Shown: one piece after another, positions 211-10,717 of the stretch
How positions within the stretch are numbered: the first letter of the stretch is position 1
Layout of the letters: each line of letters opens with the position of its first letter
Source: Candidatus Eiseniibacteriota bacterium
Lineage (GTDB): Bacteria > Arandabacterota > Arandabacteria > JAGLYR01
Direction: 5' to 3'
Length of the DNA stretch: 11,207 bases
Assembly: GCA_023132135.1 (NCBI GenBank)
Contig: JAGLYR010000136.1
Location: 1-11,207, forward strand
Program-made: the position numbers and the translations under genes
Notes under the pieces: generated by a model
Seen by the model: only the letters and a program-made list of their open reading frames with translations
Told to the model about the DNA's origin: nothing
Database searches by the model: none

Positions 211-2574
211 GTGAAGATACCGCTGCCCCCTTCGCGAAGAGATGTGACCGGGACAATCCTGGCCGGGATTGGACTTGGGGCACTCTACTGGCTGATTCAG
301 TCCTCCACAGATGCCTTTCTCTTCCACAAGGGCGAGTTCTTCCAGCAATTCCTGCACCCGGACCGGTACCAGCTGTTCATGCGCCTCCAAGCTGTTTTCC
401 TCCTCATGTTCCTGGGCGCCTACCGGGGAGTGCTGGTCCACCGCATCCGGCAGGCGGTGGGGAACTGGCGCATGGCGGAGTCCGCCCATCGGGAACTGCA
501 GGGGCAGAACGTTCGCCTGCTTCGGGACCTGGAATGCGCAAACCAGATGGCCCGGCAGGCGATAGCCGCGGACCGGGCCAAGAGTGATTTCCTGGCCATG
601 ATGACCCACGAAATCCGCACACCCCTCAACGGGATCATGGGCATGACAGAAGTCGCGCTCAGCACGGAGCTGAACCCAGAGCAGAGGGATTTCCTGGAAA
701 CAGCCAAAGCCTCGGCGGATTCGCTGCTCCAGGTCATCAATGATGTGCTGGATTTCTCCCGCATGGAGGCGGGGAAACTCGATCTGGACGAGGTGAGCTT
801 CAGCTTGCGGGATTGCCTGTCCGACATTGTGGGTGCCCTTGGTCTGCTGGCCTCGAGGAAGGGCTTGGAACTGACCTGCGAGGTCGGTCCTGATGTGCCG
901 GATGCGCTGGTGGGCGATCCGAGTCGACTGCGACAGATCATGGTCAACCTCATCGGGAATGCCGTCAAATTTACTGAGCGCGGCCATGTTAAGGTTTCTG
1001 TTGAGCTGGATCCGGGCCCGGCAGGAGAAGCGCGACCCAAAGCTGATCCGTCCGCCGGAAGCCGGTACGTGCGCTTCTCCGTCGCGGACACAGGCGTGGG
1101 CGTTCCCCGTGAAAACCGGGAGACGATCTTCGGCGCCTACATCCAGGCCGGGGACTCTCCGCCTCGCCGGTATGGTGGTTCGGGTCTTGGCCTGGCCATC
1201 TGCAGGCAACTGGTCGAGATAATGGGAGGGCGGATCTGGCTGGAGAGCGAACCAGGCCCGGGAAGCACATTCTGCTTCACTGCTCACTTTGGTTTGCAGA
1301 CCGGCTTGGAGATCAGCCGGGAACCGGCTCGGCTGGCCCATCCGACGAATCTGGCGGGGCTCCCGGTTCTGGTGGTTGACGAAAATGCCGCCAGTCGGCG
1401 GGTTCTGGAACAGACGCTGAGCAGCTGGTCCATGGAGGCAGAGGCTGTAGATGGGGGGGACTCCGCGCTGGCGAAGCTGGAAGAGGCGACCGAAGCCGGG
1501 CGGGACTATGTTCTCGTGATCCTGGATGGGAAGGCGACTGGAATGGATGGCTTCGCGCTGGCCAACAAGATCAAGAAAGACGCCACGCTCTCAGCCTCTT
1601 CCCTGATCATGATCAAGTCCTCGGGGGAGAGGGGAGACGGCGCCCGTTGCCGGGAACTGGGCATTGCGGCCTACCTCACCAGACCAATTCGTCAATTGGA
1701 GCTCCTCCAGGCAATCACGACCATCCTCGATAAAGACCCATCGGACGAAGGCCACCACGAGCTGGTCACGCGCCACACACTCCGGGAAGCCCGCCGTCGC
1801 CTGCGCATTCTGCTGGCGGAAGACGATGCGGTGAATCGCAAGTTCGCCCTGCGTGCCTTGGAACAGACAGGGCACACGGTGGTGGTGGCTGAAAACGGAA
1901 AGGAGGCCGTGGCGGCTTTCGGGCTGGAGTCTTTTGATCTTGTGCTGATGGATGTGCAGATGCCGGGCATGAACGGCCTGGAAGCGGCCGCCGAGATCCG
2001 GAAGCAGGAGGTGGGGACAGGCGGCCATATTCCCATCATTGCAATGACAGCCGGGGCTTGGGACGGCGACCGGCAGCGGTGTCTCGACGCGGGGATGGAT
2101 GGCTATCTCGGCAAACCACTGACTCTCAAGGCACTCCACGAACTGATGGACGACTTCCTTGGCGCGGGACCGGTTTCCCGGGTGGGGTGGCAGGCACCTC
2201 CCGCTTCCCACAGCACGCCGGCCGACTGGGGGCGCGTTCGCAGGATGGCCGAGGACGATCCCGAGTGCGAACAGGAGCTTCTGAATCTCTTTGTTTCGCA
2301 GACTCGGGAGAGACTCTCCTTCCTGGATACAGCGGTGCGGGAAGGGGACGGTGCGCGGATCGAGGAAGTGGCTCATGGGTTGAAAGGTGCCTGCGGAAAC
2401 CTGGACGCGAAGAACCTGGAGCATCTGGCCCACGAGCTCGAACGAGTAGGGGCCTCCGGGAATCTGGACAGCACAAGGGAGATCTTCCAGGCTCTGCTGG
2501 CTGAATGGCACAGGGTGGAGAGGTACTTGCTCGACTACAGGAAATCGCCGAAGTCCGTAGTCCCAAGTCCCTAG
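211..2574 (+). CDS. Membrane-anchored hybrid histidine kinase (HisKA-HATPase-REC-REC-HPt)
   Basis: The 787-residue product is a hybrid sensor kinase with an internal phosphorelay. Two hydrophobic segments (about 14-32 and 58-77) flank a short loop, so there is no sizeable extracytoplasmic sensor domain. A probable coiled coil (85-120) leads to the HisKA H-box with His133 ([10 protein letters not shown]). The ATPase domain shows an N-box ([11 protein letters not shown], 246-256), G1 (DTGVGVP, 293-299) and G2 (GGSGLGLAI, 322-330). The first receiver (385-507) keeps Asp439 but has Arg491 where the conserved Lys is expected. The second (531-650) is canonical: DD at 538-539, Asp581, Thr613, Lys635. 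The C-terminal HPt domain carries His722 in AHGLKG. The start is GTG at 211; GGAGA at 196-200 lies ten bases upstream, and the ATG at 203 runs straight into a stop. This architecture resembles BarA/ArcB/TorS-type kinases, but the signal and output partner are unknown. No response regulator with a DNA-binding output lies next to it. Confidence 0.93.
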
Positions 2575-2669: not shown

Positions 2670-4101
<1,432 letters not shown>

Positions 4102-4109
4102 GGGATTTG

Positions 4110-6122
4110 CTATTCCTCCCCGACAATCTGCTCTGGGGAAACTTCCTGCTTCATTGGCACGGAGACGGTGAAGGTCGTTCCCCTGCCGGGTTTGGAGTGA
4201 ACCTCGATCCCGCCGCGGTGCATCTTGATGATCCCGTACGCGATGGCGAGCCCAAGCCCTGTGCCCTTGCCGATGGGTTTGGTTGTGAAGAATGGCTGGA
4301 ACAGCTTGGACTGATTCTCCTCGGGGATCCCTGGTCCGGAATCCGAGATCCCGATCCTGAGAGTGCGGCCGTCCACGCTGGACTTGGCCTCAAGGATCAG
4401 GGATCCGCCGTCGGGCATGACCTCCAGGGCGTTGAGGACAATGTTCATAATGACCTGTCTGATCTGGTCCGGATCCAGCTCCACATCGGGCAGGTCCGGC
4501 GCGACGTCAAATCGCACCTCGACCGTATGGTCGGGAAACTGCTCTTCGGCTTCCTTCACCGTCTCTTCCAGAAGGCTCGCAATATTGGTGCTGGCCAGAT
4601 TCAGCTTGCTCTGGCGGGCGAAGTTGAGCAACCCCGACACGATCTTGCGACAGCGTTCGGTTTCGTCGATGATGAGCTGCGCGTCCGCCTTCCCCTGTTC
4701 GCTCTCGCCTAACTGGTCTTGCAGTAGATGGCCGTAGATCAGGACGGTTCCCAGTGGATTGTTGATCTCGTGGGCCACCCCGGCGGCCAGCTGGCCCATG
4801 GCCGCCAGTTTCTCGGAATGAACGAGTTGCTCCTGTGCGGCCGCCAGCTTCCGGTTTGTGCGCTGGAGTTCCAGGGAGGTGCGCCCACACTTCCTGATCA
4901 GGTGGTGCAGGCACATGTTCTCATCCGTGAGCCCCTGGGCCAGTGCCACGCCCGCCTCCCAGCACGTGCTGTACCCGCAGGAACCACAGTCCAGCATGTC
5001 TTCCTCGGTATGCCGGTCCAGCCTTTCGAGCGCGTCGTAGACTTCCGCGTCGGACGGCATGGGAAGCCGGAGATCGTTGGCGATGAAGCTCCGGCTCAAG
5101 TCTACCCCGGTGCGCCGCTCCAGCTTGCCCAGCCACCGGGCCTGCTCGGCCTTCCCGCCCTCAGCCATGCAGTACTCCGCCAGGATCTGGCGCTTGGCCA
5201 GAGGGCTCAGGTCGCGGCTCACAAAGGGAGCATCCAGACCCCGTTCACAGAAGCATGTCTCGATGAAGCGAACCTGGGTATCTGAGGTGGCAAGGTCGCG
5301 GAAGGCGTGCACGCACTCTTCCGGCGAGAGGTAGAAGGCGGCCTCTTGCGGCGAGAAGTGGGGGTCGGCCCCCAGAATCCAGGAGCGGGCTCCTGCAATT
5401 GGATACCACCTGCCGATGACGGGGTGAGGTTCGTCGAAGGGTTCCTCGTGAAGAAGATCCCGGATGATGCCATGGCGCAGGAACATGTCCCTGAGCTCAT
5501 CGAAGGTAATCACCGCGTCGATGACTCCCTCGACCTCCGGATCCATCATCTCGAACCGGTGAGCGGCGCAGGCACTGGCGTACACGATGCGAAGGGGACC
5601 TTCGTTCCCGGCGCGGAGATACCGGCCCACGGCGATCATGGGCGAAACGATGGGGGCAAGGAAGGGGACCAGGGACGGAGTGAACCGGCACACATACCTG
5701 TGAGTCGCGGGGCAGGCTGTCGAGATGATCATGGCCATCTCGCGCCGACTGAACAACTCCTGGTACTCCGGGGCGATGAGATCGATGCCGAATGCGCCTT
5801 CGACAACCCGGTCGAAGCCGCGGTACTTAGCGGCAGCCACCAGCTTGTGCGGACTCAGGCCCGGGAATGCGGCGGGAAAAGACGAATCGAGAACCAGGAC
5901 CGTCTCAGTGGCTTGTTCCAGGAATTCCCGAACCGGGGGCACCATTGAGTCCAGCTCGATTGCTCCCTGCCCGCACGCCTTGATGCAACCGCCACAGCCG
6001 AGACAGCGTTCTTCGCTGATTTCCGCGCGACCCAGCCGTGCAGCAATGGCTTTCGTGGGACAGTACAGAATGCAGGAATAGGACCCGCGGCACTTGCCGG
6101 TATTCGCCTGGATGATGCTCAT
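4110..6122 (-). CDS. Histidine kinase with degenerate [FeFe]-hydrogenase-like iron-sulfur sensor
   Basis: The 670-residue soluble protein joins an iron-sulfur sensor to a kinase core. Residues 8-55 are ferredoxin-like: C11, C17, C21-P, then C40-x2-C43-x2-C46-x3-C50; the expected cysteine at 14 is Ser. Residues about 65-330 resemble the [FeFe]-hydrogenase large subunit C-terminal domain (PF02906), but the H-cluster motifs are altered: L1 TSCCP is STACP (C137 kept), L2 MPCxxK is SACAAH (C185 kept), and L3 is ETCFCERGL (C290, C292), with Leu at the bridging-cysteine position and no GGGQ. A PF04060-type FeS motif follows (C379-x2-C382-x4-C387-x16-C404), then a coiled coil (410-440), HisKA with His451 (AHEINNPLG), and an ATPase with DSGPGIP (594-600) and GKGTGLGLAIAYG (618-630). 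The ATG at 6122 is chosen over one at 6176 because AGAGGA lies just upstream and the longer form overlaps nfnAB. Group C1 [FeFe] hydrogenases are kinase-linked putative H2 sensors; this looks like a relative that senses through a [4Fe-4S] cluster without hydrogenase activity (inference). The likely partner is the response regulator in the same operon. Confidence 0.88.
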   Translation of the reverse strand: MSIIQANTGKCRGSYSCILYCPTKAIAARLGRAEISEERCLGCGGCIKACGQGAIELDSMVPPVREFLEQATETVLVLDSSFPAAFPGLSPHKLVAAAKYRGFDRVVEGAFGIDLIAPEYQELFSRREMAMIISTACPATHRYVCRFTPSLVPFLAPIVSPMIAVGRYLRAGNEGPLRIVYASACAAHRFEMMDPEVEGVIDAVITFDELRDMFLRHGIIRDLLHEEPFDEPHPVIGRWYPIAGARSWILGADPHFSPQEAAFYLSPEECVHAFRDLATSDTQVRFIETCFCERGLDAPFVSRDLSPLAKRQILAEYCMAEGGKAEQARWLGKLERRTGVDLSRSFIANDLRLPMPSDAEVYDALERLDRHTEEDMLDCGSCGYSTCWEAGVALAQGLTDENMCLHHLIRKCGRTSLELQRTNRKLAAAQEQLVHSEKLAAMGQLAAGVAHEINNPLGTVLIYGHLLQDQLGESEQGKADAQLIIDETERCRKIVSGLLNFARQSKLNLASTNIASLLEETVKEAEEQFPDHTVEVRFDVAPDLPDVELDPDQIRQVIMNIVLNALEVMPDGGSLILEAKSSVDGRTLRIGISDSGPGIPEENQSKLFQPFFTTKPIGKGTGLGLAIAYGIIKMHRGGIEVHSKPGRGTTFTVSVPMKQEVSPEQIVGEE

Positions 6123-6129
6123 TTTTCCT

Positions 6130-8424
6130 CTACCACTCATCCGTACGCAGGTACTGATCGATACTCTGGGCGGCATTTCGCCCGGCGCCCATGGCGAGGA
6201 TCACGGTGGCGGCACCGGTGACGATATCGCCCCCGGCGAAAACCCCGCGCTTGGAGGTCTTGCCCGTCTCCTCGTCGGCGATGATGTTCCCCCACCTGTT
6301 GAGCTCCAGCCCTGGTGTGGTCCGCCCGATCAACGGGTTCGGCCCCTGTCCGACGGCAATGATCACCACCTCGGCGGGAACCACGTGCTCCGATCCCTCG
6401 ATGGGTACCGGGCGACGGCGTCCCGAGGCGTCGGGTTCTCCCAGCTCCATCTTCAGGCACTCCACCCCCGTGACCCAACCCCCATCATTGCCGATGATTC
6501 GCACAGGATTCGTCAGAAGCGTCAGGAGAATCCCTTCGGCCTCCGCATTCTCAATCTCCTCCTCCCGGGCCGGCATTTCCTGCCGCGACCGCCGGTACAC
6601 GTTGAACACGCGCTTCGCCCCGAGCCGCGCCGCCACCCGGGCCGAGTCCATTGCCACGTTTCCCCCACCGACCACCACCACATTCTCTGCCACCCGAACA
6701 GGCGTGTCGTACTCCGGGAACAGGTAGGCCTTCATCAGATTGGCCCGTGTCAGGAACTCGTTGGCCGAGTAGACCCCATTGAGATTCTCCCCCTCAATCC
6801 GCATGAAGTAGGGAAGACCTGCTCCCGTAGCAACGAAAACCGCATCGTAGCCATCGTCAAAGAGAGCATCGATCGTGTCGCTCTTGCCAATCACGTAGCT
6901 GGTGCGGATTTCCACCCCCAGTTTGGACACGTAATCCGCCTCGGTCTGGACTACACGCTTGGGCAACCGGAACTCGGGAATGCCGTAGACAAGCACACCT
7001 CCCGGCTTGTGAAGGGCTTCGAAAACGGTGACCCGGTGTCCCTTCTTTGCCAGATCGCCGGCTGCAGTGAGACCCCCTGGCCCGGCCCCGACAATTGCCA
7101 CCCGCTTCCCCGTCTCTTTCGGCTTCTCGGGCGCTCGGATGTCCCCCTGCTGGAACTCGTAGTCGGCCGCAAAACGCTCCAGGCGGCCAATGGCTACGGG
7201 CTCACCTTTCTTCGACAGAACACACAACTTCTCGCACTGGTCCTCCTGCGGGCACACTCGCCCGCAGATCGCGGGCAGGCTGTTCGTTCTCTTGATCTTG
7301 TGAATGGCTCCCATGAAGTTCCCGGTCTTCATATCCGAAATGAAACCGGGGATGTCCACCGCCACCGGGCACCCGGCCACGCATGGTTGCTTCTTGCACT
7401 CGAGGCACCGGCTCGCTTCCTTCAGCGCCTGTTTCCGACTGTACCCCAGCGCCACCTCATCGAAATTCTGCACCCGGAGCTGCGGGTCCTGCTGCGGCAT
7501 GGGCTCCCGCTCCTTCGCCCGAACCAGCTCTTCCTCCTGCTCCTGCAGCTTGCACTGGTAGTCCCACAACGCCCGGTTCTCCTCCCGGGAATACATCGCC
7601 TGCCGTTGGAGAAGCTCCTCAAAATCCACCAGCGCCCCGTCAAACTCCGGACCGTCCACGCACACGAACTTCGTCTCATCGCCCACGGTCACCCGGCATG
7701 CTCCGCACATCCCGGTGCCGTCCACCATGATGGAGTTGAGACTGACCATGGTCTTGATCTTTGCCGCCACTGCTACCCTTACCACGGCCCGCATCATCAC
7801 CACAGGACCAATGGCCACCACCAGGTCGATCGTCTCGCCATTGCCGATGGCTTCCTCCAGCGGACCGGTCACCAGTCCCTTCCGCCCGTAACTGCCATCG
7901 TCGGTCACGGTCACCACCTCGTCGCTGACAGCGCCCATCTCCTCCTGCAGAATCAGCAGATCGCGGTTCCGGGCTCCGATCACCGACACAATCCGGTTCC
8001 CCGCCTCTTTCAGCGCCCGGGTGATCGGATAAAGCGGCGCCACACCTACGCCCCCCCCAATGCAGTAAACGGTCCCGTACTTCTCGATTTCCGACGGGAC
8101 CCCCAGAGGACCCACCACGTCCAGGATCGTCTGGCCCTTCTGAAACCCACCGAGCTTCCGGGTCGAGACCCCGATCACCGCAAAAACCACCGTGATCCAG
8201 CCCTCTGTCCTGTTGTAGTCCACAACCGTCAGAGGAATCCGCTCGGCATAGTCGTCCGCCCGAAGAACAACGAACTGTCCCGGTTTCACCCACCGGGCCA
8301 CATGAGGCGAACATATCTTGAACAGCACGTTGCCCTGGGCAATCTCCTGCCGCTCCAGGATCAGGTTTTTCCCCCGCGTTGCGTCATCCGTCTCGTGACA
8401 CGAATGGGATCCAGATTTCACCAT
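6130..8424 (-). CDS. nfnAB: Fused NfnA-NfnB: ferredoxin:NADP+/NADH oxidoreductase (electron-bifurcating type)
   Basis: The 764-residue protein is a head-to-tail fusion. Residues 20-270 match NfnA/SudB, a ferredoxin-NADP-reductase-like subunit: FAD motif ERIPLT (61-66), NAD-binding GGGVGVAP (123-130), and a [2Fe-2S] motif with Asp235, Cys240, Cys243 and Cys255, reproducing the unusual Asp-plus-three-Cys set known for Nfn. Residues 320-764 match NfnB/SudA, related to the glutamate synthase small subunit: cysteines 340, 343, 348, 352 and 387, 391, 397, 401 for two [4Fe-4S] clusters, FAD site GAGPGG (446-451), NADP(H) site GGGNVA (586-591), and the C-terminal GGD (731-733). In the family, reduced ferredoxin and NADH together reduce NADP+, or the reverse with bifurcation. 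Separate nfnA and nfnB genes are about 280 and 460 codons, so both halves are full length, joined by a charged linker (about 272-320). The ATG follows the response-regulator stop by 3 bp with only a weak ribosome site, implying translational coupling. The stop is 7 bp before the kinase gene. True GltD is less likely because the NfnA half is attached and no gltB is present. Confidence 0.92.
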   Translation of the reverse strand: MVKSGSHSCHETDDATRGKNLILERQEIAQGNVLFKICSPHVARWVKPGQFVVLRADDYAERIPLTVVDYNRTEGWITVVFAVIGVSTRKLGGFQKGQTILDVVGPLGVPSEIEKYGTVYCIGGGVGVAPLYPITRALKEAGNRIVSVIGARNRDLLILQEEMGAVSDEVVTVTDDGSYGRKGLVTGPLEEAIGNGETIDLVVAIGPVVMMRAVVRVAVAAKIKTMVSLNSIMVDGTGMCGACRVTVGDETKFVCVDGPEFDGALVDFEELLQRQAMYSREENRALWDYQCKLQEQEEELVRAKEREPMPQQDPQLRVQNFDEVALGYSRKQALKEASRCLECKKQPCVAGCPVAVDIPGFISDMKTGNFMGAIHKIKRTNSLPAICGRVCPQEDQCEKLCVLSKKGEPVAIGRLERFAADYEFQQGDIRAPEKPKETGKRVAIVGAGPGGLTAAGDLAKKGHRVTVFEALHKPGGVLVYGIPEFRLPKRVVQTEADYVSKLGVEIRTSYVIGKSDTIDALFDDGYDAVFVATGAGLPYFMRIEGENLNGVYSANEFLTRANLMKAYLFPEYDTPVRVAENVVVVGGGNVAMDSARVAARLGAKRVFNVYRRSRQEMPAREEEIENAEAEGILLTLLTNPVRIIGNDGGWVTGVECLKMELGEPDASGRRRPVPIEGSEHVVPAEVVIIAVGQGPNPLIGRTTPGLELNRWGNIIADEETGKTSKRGVFAGGDIVTGAATVILAMGAGRNAAQSIDQYLRTDEW

Positions 8425-8427
8425 GGT

Positions 8428-8841
8428 CTAGTTTTCCGTTCCCTTCTCCCGCCGGGCCAGCAACTCCTCCACCTTTCCCAGCAACCTTTCCGGCGACACC
8501 GGCTTTTCGAGAAAATCGTCCGTCCTCATCCAGTATCCATCCAGCTCCTGCGAGAACTCCACTCCGGTTACCTCGCGCACAGAGGTTAACATCAGAATGG
8601 GTGTCTCCTTGAATGCCGGATCGCTCTTCACATCCCTCGCGAACTGGAACCCCGAGTCGTGCTTCTCCATCATCAGATCCAGCACAATCAGGTCCGGGAA
8701 TATCACCCGGATTCTCTCCAGTCCTTCCTTGTGACTGTATGCTACACTGATCTCGTACCCGGCGTTCTCCAGTACCGCACGATTCACTTCCACGAAATCG
8801 TAGTCGTTGTCCACTACCAGGATCTTCGCCTTGCCCGCCAT
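8428..8841 (-). CDS. Single-domain response regulator (receiver only)
   Basis: This 137-residue protein is a CheY-like receiver with no output domain. The acidic pocket is D11-N12-D13 (VVDNDYDF), the phosphoacceptor is Asp55 (LIVLDLM), the switch residue Thr86 (LMLTSV) and the conserved Lys113 (FLEKPV). The loop after Asp55 (MMEKHDSGFQFARD) and the segment 90-110 are longer than in CheY. The ATG is supported by GAGGAG nine bases upstream. It is the first gene of the three-gene operon and probably accepts phosphate from His451 of the hydrogenase-like kinase. With no DNA-binding domain, its output must be by protein contact, for example with the divergent sigma-54 activator, with NfnAB itself, or in a phosphorelay; the sequence does not say which. 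Confidence 0.92.
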   Translation of the reverse strand: MAGKAKILVVDNDYDFVEVNRAVLENAGYEISVAYSHKEGLERIRVIFPDLIVLDLMMEKHDSGFQFARDVKSDPAFKETPILMLTSVREVTGVEFSQELDGYWMRTDDFLEKPVSPERLLGKVEELLARREKGTEN

Positions 8842-8919
8842 TGCCGAACTCCTCTTTCGACTCCCTGCTTCCCGGTCCGGGGAGAGTATACGGCCCCAAA
8901 CCGGAGAACTCGCATGTAG

Positions 8920-8935
8920 TGCAAGCGAGCGCCCA
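8920..8935 (-). promoter_or_regulatory. Candidate sigma-54 promoter for the response regulator-nfnAB-kinase operon
   Basis: The minus strand reads TGGGCGCTCGCTTGCA. It keeps the GG of the -24 element and the TTGCA of the -12 element at the correct 10-bp separation, but the CACG after the GG is not matched. Transcription would start near 8909, about 68 nt before the ATG at 8841. The divergently encoded sigma-54 activator makes this plausible. The score is well below that of the site at 10702. Confidence 0.38.
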
Positions 8936-9081
8936 TATTACGGGCCGCGCAAGCCCCATGTCAACCCTTGTGGGCGACAGGGCGAGAGCACGAGAGCGAA
9001 CCCTTGGCCGCAGAATACGCAGAGGAAGAAGAGCAGTGTTTTCCCTCTCCCTCTGGGTGAGGGTATGAGGCCCTTTTCCTT

Positions 9082-9094: not shown

Positions 9095-9176
9095 GTTCTG
9101 ATGCCCTTTTCCGTCGAAAGCATTTGCCCGTCCGCTCATCGTGTCCTACCATATGACATTAGGAGGATGCGGGACC

Positions 9177-10532
9177 GTGAGCAGGAACTCATCAGAATTG
9201 CCTTCCCCAACGCACGGCGATGTGATACTCAACTCCATCGCCGATGGGGTGTTCACCGTGGATCTGGACTGGAACATCACCTTCTTCAACAGTGCCGCCG
9301 AACGCATCACGGGAATATCCCGTGATCAGGCCATCGGACAGAGATGCTTCGATGTTTTTCGGGCCAGCATCTGCGAGACGGCGTGTGCGTTGAGACAGAC
9401 CATCGATGGGGACAAGGAGATCATTGATCTGAAAGCGAACATCATGAATGCCGCCGGCGAAACAATCCCAATCAGTATCAGTACGGCGGTTCTGCGGGAC
9501 GAAGCGGGAGACGTGGTCGGCGGGGTGGAGACCTTCCGGGACCTGTCGGCCATAGAGGCGCTTCGGAAGGAAATCACGAAGGAATACACTTTCGAGGACA
9601 TCATCAGCAAGAACCGGGACATCCGGCGGATCTTTGATGTCCTCCCGGACATTGCCCAGAGCGAAAGCACAGTGCTGATTGAGGGACCCAGTGGTTCGGG
9701 GAAGGAACTCTTCGCTCGCGCGATCCACAACTTGAGCCCCCGCAAGGACGGCCCGTATGTGGTCGTCAACTGTGGCGCTCTTCCGGATACGCTGCTCGAG
9801 TCAGAACTCTTTGGCCATGTCAGGGGAGCCTTCACCGATGCGCGGAGCGATAGGGACGGCCGCTTTGCCAGGGCATCGGGAGGCACAATCTTCCTGGATG
9901 AGATCGGGGATACTTCCAGCGCTCTTCAGGTGCGTCTTCTCCGGGTGCTCCAGGAGAGAGAGTATGAACGGCTTGGGAGCTCGGATACCGTGAAAGCAGA
10001 CGTCCGCGTGATCGCAGCAAGTAACCGGAAACTCTCCGAGCTCCTGGCCGGTGGAGTTTTCCGGGAGGATCTCTACTTTCGGTTGAACGTGGTCAAGATC
10101 GTGCTGCCGCCGCTTGTGAATCGGAGGGAGGATATCCCCCTGCTCGTTGAGTATTTCGTCCGGCGCTTCAACCTGAGGCAGGGAAAGGAGATCCAGGGGG
10201 TCTCGGGTGAGGTGATGGATGTTCTGATGGCGTACGGCTATCCCGGCAACGTCCGTGAACTGGAGAACATCATAGAACACGCTTTCGTCCTGTGCCGGGG
10301 TCACGAGATCGAGGTCGGACACCTGCCCGGCGAGATCCGGTTGGTCCCCGCCGAGCGCCCGGAGAAAACCAGGCATTTCGGCGAGAACCCCCTGCAACAG
10401 GCCGAAGCCATTGCCATACTTGAGGCCCTGCGCAAGCACGGAGGCCACAGACGTTTAGCGGCTGCTGAGCTGGGCATCGACAAGACGACCCTCTGGCGGA
10501 AGATGAAGAAACTGGAAATCACATATCCCTAG
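9177..10532 (+). CDS. PAS-containing sigma-54-dependent transcriptional activator
   Basis: The 451-residue product is a bacterial enhancer-binding protein that would drive open-complex formation by RNA polymerase-sigma-54 using ATP. Residues 15-125 form a PAS domain with three cysteines in RCFDVFRASICETACALR (Cys57, Cys66, Cys70), a spacing that could hold a metal or iron-sulfur cluster. The AAA+ domain (140-370) has Walker A GPSGSGKE (170-177), Walker B GTIFLDE (236-242), arginine-finger region FREDLYFR (296-303) and GNVRELENII (357-366). The sigma-54-contact loop is GAFTDA (217-222), with Asp for the usual Gly. The C-terminus is a Fis-type helix-turn-helix (RRLAAAELGIDKTTLWRKMK). There is no receiver domain. 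GTG at 9177 is chosen because AGGAGG (9161-9166) lies ten bases upstream; an in-frame GTG at 9141 and ATG at 9153 have no ribosome site. The gene is divergent from the nfnAB operon and 227 bp upstream of the PF02579 gene, whose sigma-54 promoter is its most likely target. Confidence 0.93.
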   Translation: MSRNSSELPSPTHGDVILNSIADGVFTVDLDWNITFFNSAAERITGISRDQAIGQRCFDVFRASICETACALRQTIDGDKEIIDLKANIMNAAGETIPISISTAVLRDEAGDVVGGVETFRDLSAIEALRKEITKEYTFEDIISKNRDIRRIFDVLPDIAQSESTVLIEGPSGSGKELFARAIHNLSPRKDGPYVVVNCGALPDTLLESELFGHVRGAFTDARSDRDGRFARASGGTIFLDEIGDTSSALQVRLLRVLQEREYERLGSSDTVKADVRVIAASNRKLSELLAGGVFREDLYFRLNVVKIVLPPLVNRREDIPLLVEYFVRRFNLRQGKEIQGVSGEVMDVLMAYGYPGNVRELENIIEHAFVLCRGHEIEVGHLPGEIRLVPAERPEKTRHFGENPLQQAEAIAILEALRKHGGHRRLAAAELGIDKTTLWRKMKKLEITYP

Positions 10533-10701: not shown

Positions 10702-10717
10702 TGGCACGCTGGTTGCT
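10702..10717 (+). promoter_or_regulatory. Consensus sigma-54 (-24/-12) promoter
   Basis: TGGCACGCTGGTTGCT matches the sigma-54 consensus TGGCACG-N4-TTGCW at every defined position, with GG (10703-10704) and GC (10715-10716) ten bases apart. The predicted start is near 10728, about 32 nt before the ATG of the PF02579 gene. A sigma-54 activator is encoded directly upstream and a palindromic candidate enhancer lies at 10571-10584. Confidence 0.9.

Follow-up and report, generated by a model that had tools for sequence, protein, structure and literature searches.

Histidine kinases that carry an [FeFe]-hydrogenase-like sensor domain are classified in HydDB as group C1, a putative, histidine kinase-linked and possibly H2-sensing group (PMC5037454). 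A Cx2Cx4Cx16C motif has been reported for the sensory groups C and D, and the cysteine of the L1 motif is not conserved in their subclasses M2e and M2f (PMC8163306). At this L1 position, sensory hydrogenases have alanine in about 43% and cysteine in only 17% of the cases (PMC10055695). For group C1 proteins with a HATPase domain from Hydrogenedentota, a 2024 study could detect hardly any H-cluster motifs and did not decide whether they sense H2 (PMC11406978). Proteins of groups C and D with an H-domain carry the annotation of putative H2 sensors, and surveys of genomes and metagenomes include them among the hydrogenases.

Here we describe a kinase of this kind from a Candidatus Eiseniibacteriota bacterium, encoded on a contig of 11,207 nucleotides, the whole of which is referred to as the window. 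An initial annotation, made from the letters of the sequence, had proposed a repurposed hydrogenase without an H-cluster. Our results support this proposal well, and more by genome, context and fold evidence than by motifs alone: no maturases or hydrogenases were found, the loss of the H-cluster lysine tracks the loss of hydrogenase neighbours, and a hydrogenase-like fold is predicted at high confidence. The best explanation, to which we assign a probability of about 0.7, is a soluble histidine kinase with a former [FeFe]-hydrogenase domain as its sensor, in which the diiron half of the H-cluster is gone, and which senses the redox state through Fe-S clusters, in connection with NfnBA and NADPH metabolism. 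The protein is very probably an H-domain sensor kinase without an H-cluster. As for the signal, the gene context favours a redox input by way of NfnBA, ferredoxin and NADPH.

Operon and domain architecture

The kinase belongs to a compact operon with the gene order RR-NfnBA-kinase-GDH, in which the genes are separated by only 3, 7 and 15 bp (Table 1). The reading frame, position and strand given in the initial annotation were right, with MSIIQ as the tight start. GDH, which begins 15 bp after the kinase, is probably co-transcribed with it. The NfnBA-like neighbour, a putative partner of the kinase, scores slightly below the cut-off with NF009414 (1072 bits, cut-off 1103) and above the cut-off with TIGR01316 (609 bits). 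A consensus-pattern search found no sigma-54 promoter immediately upstream of the operon. Elsewhere in the window, a perfect match to the -24/-12 promoter sits 42 bp ahead of the ATG of a gene with a Nitro_FeMo-Co domain, and a hybrid histidine kinase is encoded on the strand opposite to the operon.

Table 1. Features of the window, with positions counted from its first letter; residue numbers refer to the sensor kinase
Feature	Position	Strand	Basis
Stand-alone receiver-domain response regulator (RR), 137 aa, first operon gene	8428..8841	-	PF00072, E 6e-17
Fused NfnBA-like protein (NfnA/DHODB-type flavoprotein + GltA/NfnB), 764 aa	6130..8424	-	NF009414, TIGR01316
Sensor histidine kinase, 670 aa, start MSIIQ at 6122	4110..6122	-	ORF and translation, Pfam
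N-terminal 2[4Fe-4S] ferredoxin domain, residues 8-58	5949..6101	-	Pfam Fer4 family matches
[FeFe]-hydrogenase H-domain, about residues 74-305	5208..5903	-	PF02906, E 9e-29; AF2 pLDDT 90.8
L1 ISTACP; C137 = CpI C300, Ala136 at C299 position	5709..5726	-	Family and profile alignments
L2 ASACAAHRFE; C185 = CpI C355, His188 at K358	5550..5579	-	Family and profile alignments
L3 FIETCFCERGLDAPFV; C292 = CpI C499, Gly295 at C503, C290 extra	5220..5267	-	Alignments
Codon of Gly295	5238-5240	-	
C-terminal Fe-S domain, Cx2Cx4Cx16C (C379, C382, C387, C404)	4893..4997	-	PF04060
HisKA, phospho-acceptor His451 (HEINNP)	4611..4799	-	PF00512, residues 442-504; motif position
HATPase_c; N, G1 and G2 boxes intact	4149..4475	-	PF02518, residues 550-658; motifs
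NADP-specific glutamate dehydrogenase (GDH)	2670..4094	-	NF006929, 762 bits
Hybrid histidine kinase, two receiver domains + Hpt	211-2574	+	
Sigma-54 activator gene	9141-10532		
Perfect -24/-12 sigma-54 promoter match (TGGCACGCTGGTTGCT)	10702-10717	+	
Nitro_FeMo-Co domain gene, ATG	10760		

According to Pfam, the kinase chain consists of a 2[4Fe-4S] ferredoxin domain, the H-domain (Fe_hyd_lg_C, covering residues 85-295), a C-terminal Fe-S domain (match to residues 377-405), HisKA and HATPase, and homologues with the same domain order were found. With ferredoxin, H-domain, Cx2Cx4Cx16C and HisKA/HATPase in one chain, the protein has the makeup of the group C1 sequence family, and H451, the N, G1 and G2 boxes and the adjoining RR gene are those of a two-component kinase. 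The ligand positions of the ferredoxin domain are C11, S14, C17, C21, C40, C43, C46 and C50. Ser14, overlooked in the initial annotation, stands at the second cysteine of the first ferredoxin motif, a position that is cysteine in the nine nearest relatives. The first ferredoxin cluster site, like the site in the H-domain, is thus left with three cysteines.

Hydrogenase fold and H-cluster residues

The sensor half had been likened to the catalytic domain of [FeFe] hydrogenases, and rightly so, as indicated by PF02906, by the AF2 model (pLDDT 90.8, pTM 0.91) and by its structural matches. [FeFe] hydrogenases top these matches, in agreement with Foldseek. The best is CbA5H of C. beijerinckii (8zqd), with a Z of 40.5 and an rmsd of 2.4 A for 345 aligned residues. 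CpI structures are also found in the top ranks, where about 348 residues align with a Z of 37.7-39.3 and an rmsd of 2.5-2.6 A; further CpI chains lower down have a Z of about 31.

The residues were placed with a family alignment of 71 sequences, the profile of which was aligned to CpI chains. This equates C137 with C300, C185 with C355, H188 with K358, C292 with C499 and G295 with C503 of CpI. C137, C185, C290 and C292 lie where the initial annotation had put them, and the alignment identifies C137, C185 and C292 as cubane ligands, conserved in 71/71, 71/71 and 70/71 sequences. C290 stands two residues before C292, at the position of CpI M497. Two hallmarks of an [FeFe] hydrogenase are missing. 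The lysine in contact with the diiron site (K358 in CpI), present in 54/71 sequences, is His188 in the window kinase, as the reported absence of an L2 lysine had implied. The fourth cubane cysteine, which bridges to the diiron site, is present in 69/71 sequences, the exceptions being the window kinase with glycine and a second protein, L048, with glutamate.

The loss of the bridging cysteine had been recognized from the start, but was placed at Leu296, as would be expected when the Cx3C spacing of group A is assumed. In kinase-linked C1 proteins L3 reads FCEGC[IV]xGP, for example FCEGCINGP, with a Cx2C spacing that is one residue shorter. Because L3 of the window kinase fits this spacing without a gap (FIETCFCERGLDAP / FLDILFCEGCINGP), the position of the bridging cysteine is Gly295. 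The Cx2C form of L3 occurs even in C1 kinases that keep the lysine and adjoin HydA, and the Cx3C form in catalytic and group D proteins. A sequencing error or frameshift at L3 is unlikely, since at least two separate base changes would be needed to turn TGT GAA CGG GGT CTG into CEGC, and the reading frame continues past these codons. Two other motif arguments hold as observations and lose their weight as evidence: the alanine in place of the proton-transfer cysteine in L1 is common in sensory hydrogenases, and the missing GGGQ is also missing in the sensory relatives that we examined.

In a wider sample of relatives, no members without the bridging cysteine were found besides the window kinase and L048. 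The latter (genome G115, positions 6758-9061) combines a sigma-54 activator with an H-domain in one fused protein, with the L3 sequence KYCTIENDSH and an independent loss of the bridging cysteine; HydE, HydF and HydG were not found in its genome. The reverse of the loss seen in the window occurs in a C1 kinase from Chloroflexi (L115, 7911-9866), in which the first L3 cysteine is histidine and the bridging cysteine is kept.

Maturases and hydrogenases in the source genome

The window is one contig (C42) of a metagenome-assembled genome (MAG; G000) of 3.40 Mb in 345 contigs, with 96.4% completeness and 0.4% contamination. HydE, HydF and HydG were not found in this MAG, nor was any H-domain protein besides the window kinase or any [NiFe] hydrogenase. 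An H-cluster is therefore very unlikely. The genome shows neither a builder of the H-cluster nor a hydrogenase to regulate; given the gaps of a MAG, this evidence is strong but not absolute.

Six genomes of the same class (G001-G005 and G007) encode sensors like those of group D (L003-L008; about 420-430 aa), which have all four H-cluster cysteines and mostly the lysine. HydE and HydF were found in 0/6 of these genomes, and HydG in 0/4 tested. In the five genomes that were tested with PF02906, the sensor was the sole H-domain protein. Three other genomes (G085, G086 and G151) encode catalytic-type [FeFe] hydrogenases while HydG was not found, even with G085 being 99% complete. Either maturation follows an unexplained route there, or genes were missed.

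Lysine loss and gene context in the family

We classed 100 relatives by residue 188, into 78 with and 22 without lysine, counts that are not independent because of shared ancestry. Among the sensors that keep the lysine, 56/78 have a catalytic HydA as their neighbour and 0/78 have NfnBA. Those without it are set in a very different context, with 0/22 beside HydA and 7/22 beside NfnBA. Another 11/22 are fused to, or overlap with, a gene for a sigma-54 AAA+ domain, and nine of these come from Geobacter/Desulfuromonas-type genomes; in L094, L121 and L048 the domains confirm the fusion. In the Geobacter/Desulfuromonas-type clade (L094, L110, L111, L114, L121, L131, L136, L138 and L140) the H-domain is fused directly to the sigma-54 AAA+ domain, which makes these proteins one-component regulators. 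HydG was found in 0/9 of their genomes.

The maturase follows the same division. HydG was detected above the cut-off in 26/45 genomes of lysine keepers compared with 4/23 genomes of lysine losers, many of them MAGs of unstated completeness. The four HydG-positive genomes of lysine losers (L062, L066, L067 and L102) also hold catalytic hydrogenases, and in 18/19 of the HydG-less ones no PF02906 match scored like a catalytic enzyme. The one remaining (L063) has catalytic-type enzymes and a HydG match only below the cut-off. The genome G065, a single contig of 5.0 Mb with a lysine-less sensor, yielded no HydE, HydG or HydF above the cut-off, and no [NiFe] or catalytic [FeFe] hydrogenase.

Since, among the 100 classed relatives, the sensors next to HydA all keep the lysine and those next to NfnBA have all lost it, residue 188 together with the L3 cysteine pair and the presence of HydEFG offers a simple sequence test of whether a protein is an H2 sensor or not.

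Phylogenetic affiliation

The kinase belongs to a large family: one alignment scan confirmed 519 loci, of which 80 were kept. A protein-only scan of the genome contigs found no relatives. The phylum-level sets were small, with 8 genomes for that of the window and 1 for G065. One locus (G377), 42% identical over residues 1-201 and with the lysine kept, was left out due to a masked stretch. The sensor half of the window kinase is 25-39% identical to the kinase-linked relatives of group C1.

In a tree of 108 sensors, the window kinase has a long branch and groups with nine proteins (L061, L062, L063, L066, L067, L075, L102, L112 and G065) at an SH-aLRT support of 90, the nine alone having 98. Their hosts belong to KSB1, Aminicenantes, Syntrophus/Smithella-type Deltaproteobacteria and others. 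All nine have glutamine or arginine instead of the lysine, and aspartate instead of the alanine of APSFPA. With the motif columns removed, a tree of 61 rows does not resolve the placement of the window kinase, and a tree of 35 rows puts it with the nine at an SH-aLRT of about 74, while the AU test does not reject its placement with the Geobacter clade (p-AU 0.48). Because the sister group is unsettled by the sensor once these columns are removed, we used the operon and the RR for the affiliation. The RR of the window nests among the RRs of the nine loci (SH-aLRT 92) and is 63% identical to that of L067, an independent line of sequence support for the link with this subclade.

The gene context paints a similar picture. 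In seven of the nine loci the order sensor-RR-HK2-NfnBA is found, HK2 being a receiver-PAS-HisKA-HATPase protein in the two that were examined. Their NfnBA proteins match that of the window with 621-1191 bits, the NfnBA of L062 being split into pieces. The window shares the lost lysine, the adjoining fused NfnBA and the matching RR; its operon is without HK2 and has NfnBA between the RR and the kinase.

Sequence identity between the window kinase and the subclade amounts to 35% in the H-domain, 47% in the C-terminal Fe-S domain and 57% in HisKA, compared with 49%, 71% and 66% in deep pairs within the subclade. The H-domain and the C-terminal Fe-S domain have thus diverged more than HisKA, as expected if a constraint by the cofactor was relaxed. 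The retention of C137, C185 and C292 in a fast-diverging H-domain argues for a remaining cluster. The loss of the lysine alone is no proof that an H-cluster was lost, since the nearest relatives keep the bridging cysteine and the genomes of some hold maturases and active hydrogenases. The simplest reading is that the lysine and the hydrogenase context were lost first, and that the window lineage then lost the bridging cysteine.

Signalling model and alternative explanations

In the model that we favour, Fe-S clusters would fill the sites of the ferredoxin domain, the H-domain and the C-terminal domain. The cluster of the H-domain could be a [4Fe-4S] cluster held by the three cysteines plus C290, H188 or an exogenous ligand, or else a [3Fe-4S] cluster. 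The ferredoxin domain would exchange electrons with reduced ferredoxin or with NfnBA. A change in the state of the H-domain or C-terminal cluster would then alter, through the linker helix, the kinase activity at His451, the C-terminal Fe-S domain relaying the cluster state to the HisKA helix. The phosphate would presumably be received by the CheY-like RR of the operon, and the output would adjust the NADPH/ferredoxin balance and glutamate metabolism.

The protein might still be an H2 sensor, a degenerate member of group C1 with a modified H-cluster whose diiron unit is held by C290 or C292 instead of the bridging cysteine, and which would report H2 to the kinase. The confidently predicted hydrogenase fold, the three retained cubane cysteines and the nearby C290 would fit such a protein, but the lysine and the bridging cysteine are both gone, neither maturases nor an [FeFe] or [NiFe] enzyme to regulate were found in the genome, and the neighbouring gene is NfnBA rather than a hydrogenase, which makes this explanation very improbable. 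More plausible, though still unlikely, is a sensor of O2, NO or CO, in which ligand binding or cluster breakdown at an open site of the H-domain cluster switches the kinase. Exogenous ligands bind at the open iron sites of Fe-S proteins. A cubane site with three cysteines, for which C290, H188 or solvent could be the fourth ligand, would suit this mode of sensing, as would the similarly depleted first ferredoxin site. Yet the operon partners point toward NADPH and ferredoxin metabolism, and relatives in similar operons keep all four cysteines, so that an open site is not a property of the clade.

The H-domain could also have become a scaffold free of clusters, with sensing left to the ferredoxin and C-terminal clusters. 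Its fast divergence, the loss of two key positions and the intact Cx2Cx4Cx16C motif would be in line with this. Three cubane cysteines were nevertheless kept despite the fast sequence change, and the C-terminal cluster of TamHydS, as far as the response to H2 is concerned, was unresponsive (PMC13104023); we therefore regard a pure scaffold as improbable. Equally doubtful as a persisting H2 sensor is a decaying gene, that is, a C1 sensor losing its function after the species lost its hydrogenase metabolism. The length of the branch, at 1.7 to 2.0 changes per site, and the loss of several conserved residues may hint at decay, but the 670-aa frame and the kinase boxes are intact, the operon is tight, and the cysteines of two cluster sites are fully conserved. 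The redox-sensing kinase without the diiron site thus remains our preferred explanation.

A broader reading would extend this to the relatives. Tentatively, the NfnBA-linked kinases and the sigma-54-fused proteins of Geobacter/Desulfuromonas type could be ferredoxin/NADPH redox sensors built on a hydrogenase fold without the diiron site, instead of H2 sensors, the window kinase being an extreme member that lost the bridging cysteine as well.

Comparison with known systems

Our searches of the openly licensed literature turned up no account of the NfnBA-linked clade, of the link between lysine and gene context, or of a C1 sensor without the bridging cysteine. Compared with the other members of the NfnBA-linked subclade, the window kinase shares the loss of the lysine (to glutamine or arginine there, to histidine here), a DxxFPA-type motif in place of APSFPA, and a matching RR. 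It differs in that the subclade keeps the bridging cysteine and Cys14, and in the GDH gene that follows the kinase.

Among characterized proteins, TmHydS and TamHydS of groups C and D (PMC10055695, PMC8163306) likewise combine a ferredoxin domain, an H-domain and Cx2Cx4Cx16C, with no cysteine at the position of CpI C299. In contrast to the window kinase, they carry a functional H-cluster with its full set of ligands and are not fused to a kinase. A precedent is Nar1/IOP1, a eukaryotic CIA factor (PMC12621388), which is also an H-domain homologue without [2Fe]H, from hosts that lack maturases. Compared by description, Nar1 keeps the bridging cysteine (C416), is a proposed cluster-trafficking factor and has no kinase. 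The window protein, with one cysteine of the site missing and kinase domains present, does not fall within the four-cysteine, non-kinase Nar1/NARF type.

Hydrogenedentota members of our set (L083, L089 and L113) keep the lysine and both L3 cysteines, unlike the window kinase. The Cx2C spacing may explain why H-cluster motifs were not found in the C1 proteins of this phylum.

Taken together with its relatives, the window kinase suggests that the label "H2 sensor" can be wrong, and the kinase itself is a concrete protein for studying how an H-domain might signal when it has no H-cluster. Its domain order is that of group C1 (HydDB, PMC5037454). Unlike group C1, it has His188 instead of the lysine, Gly295 instead of the bridging cysteine, and NfnBA instead of a catalytic HydA as its neighbour, in a genome in which maturases and a hydrogenase were not found. 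The kinase is a variant of group C1 rather than a new kind of system, and doubt about the H-cluster motifs in C1 proteins of Hydrogenedentota has already been published (PMC11406978).
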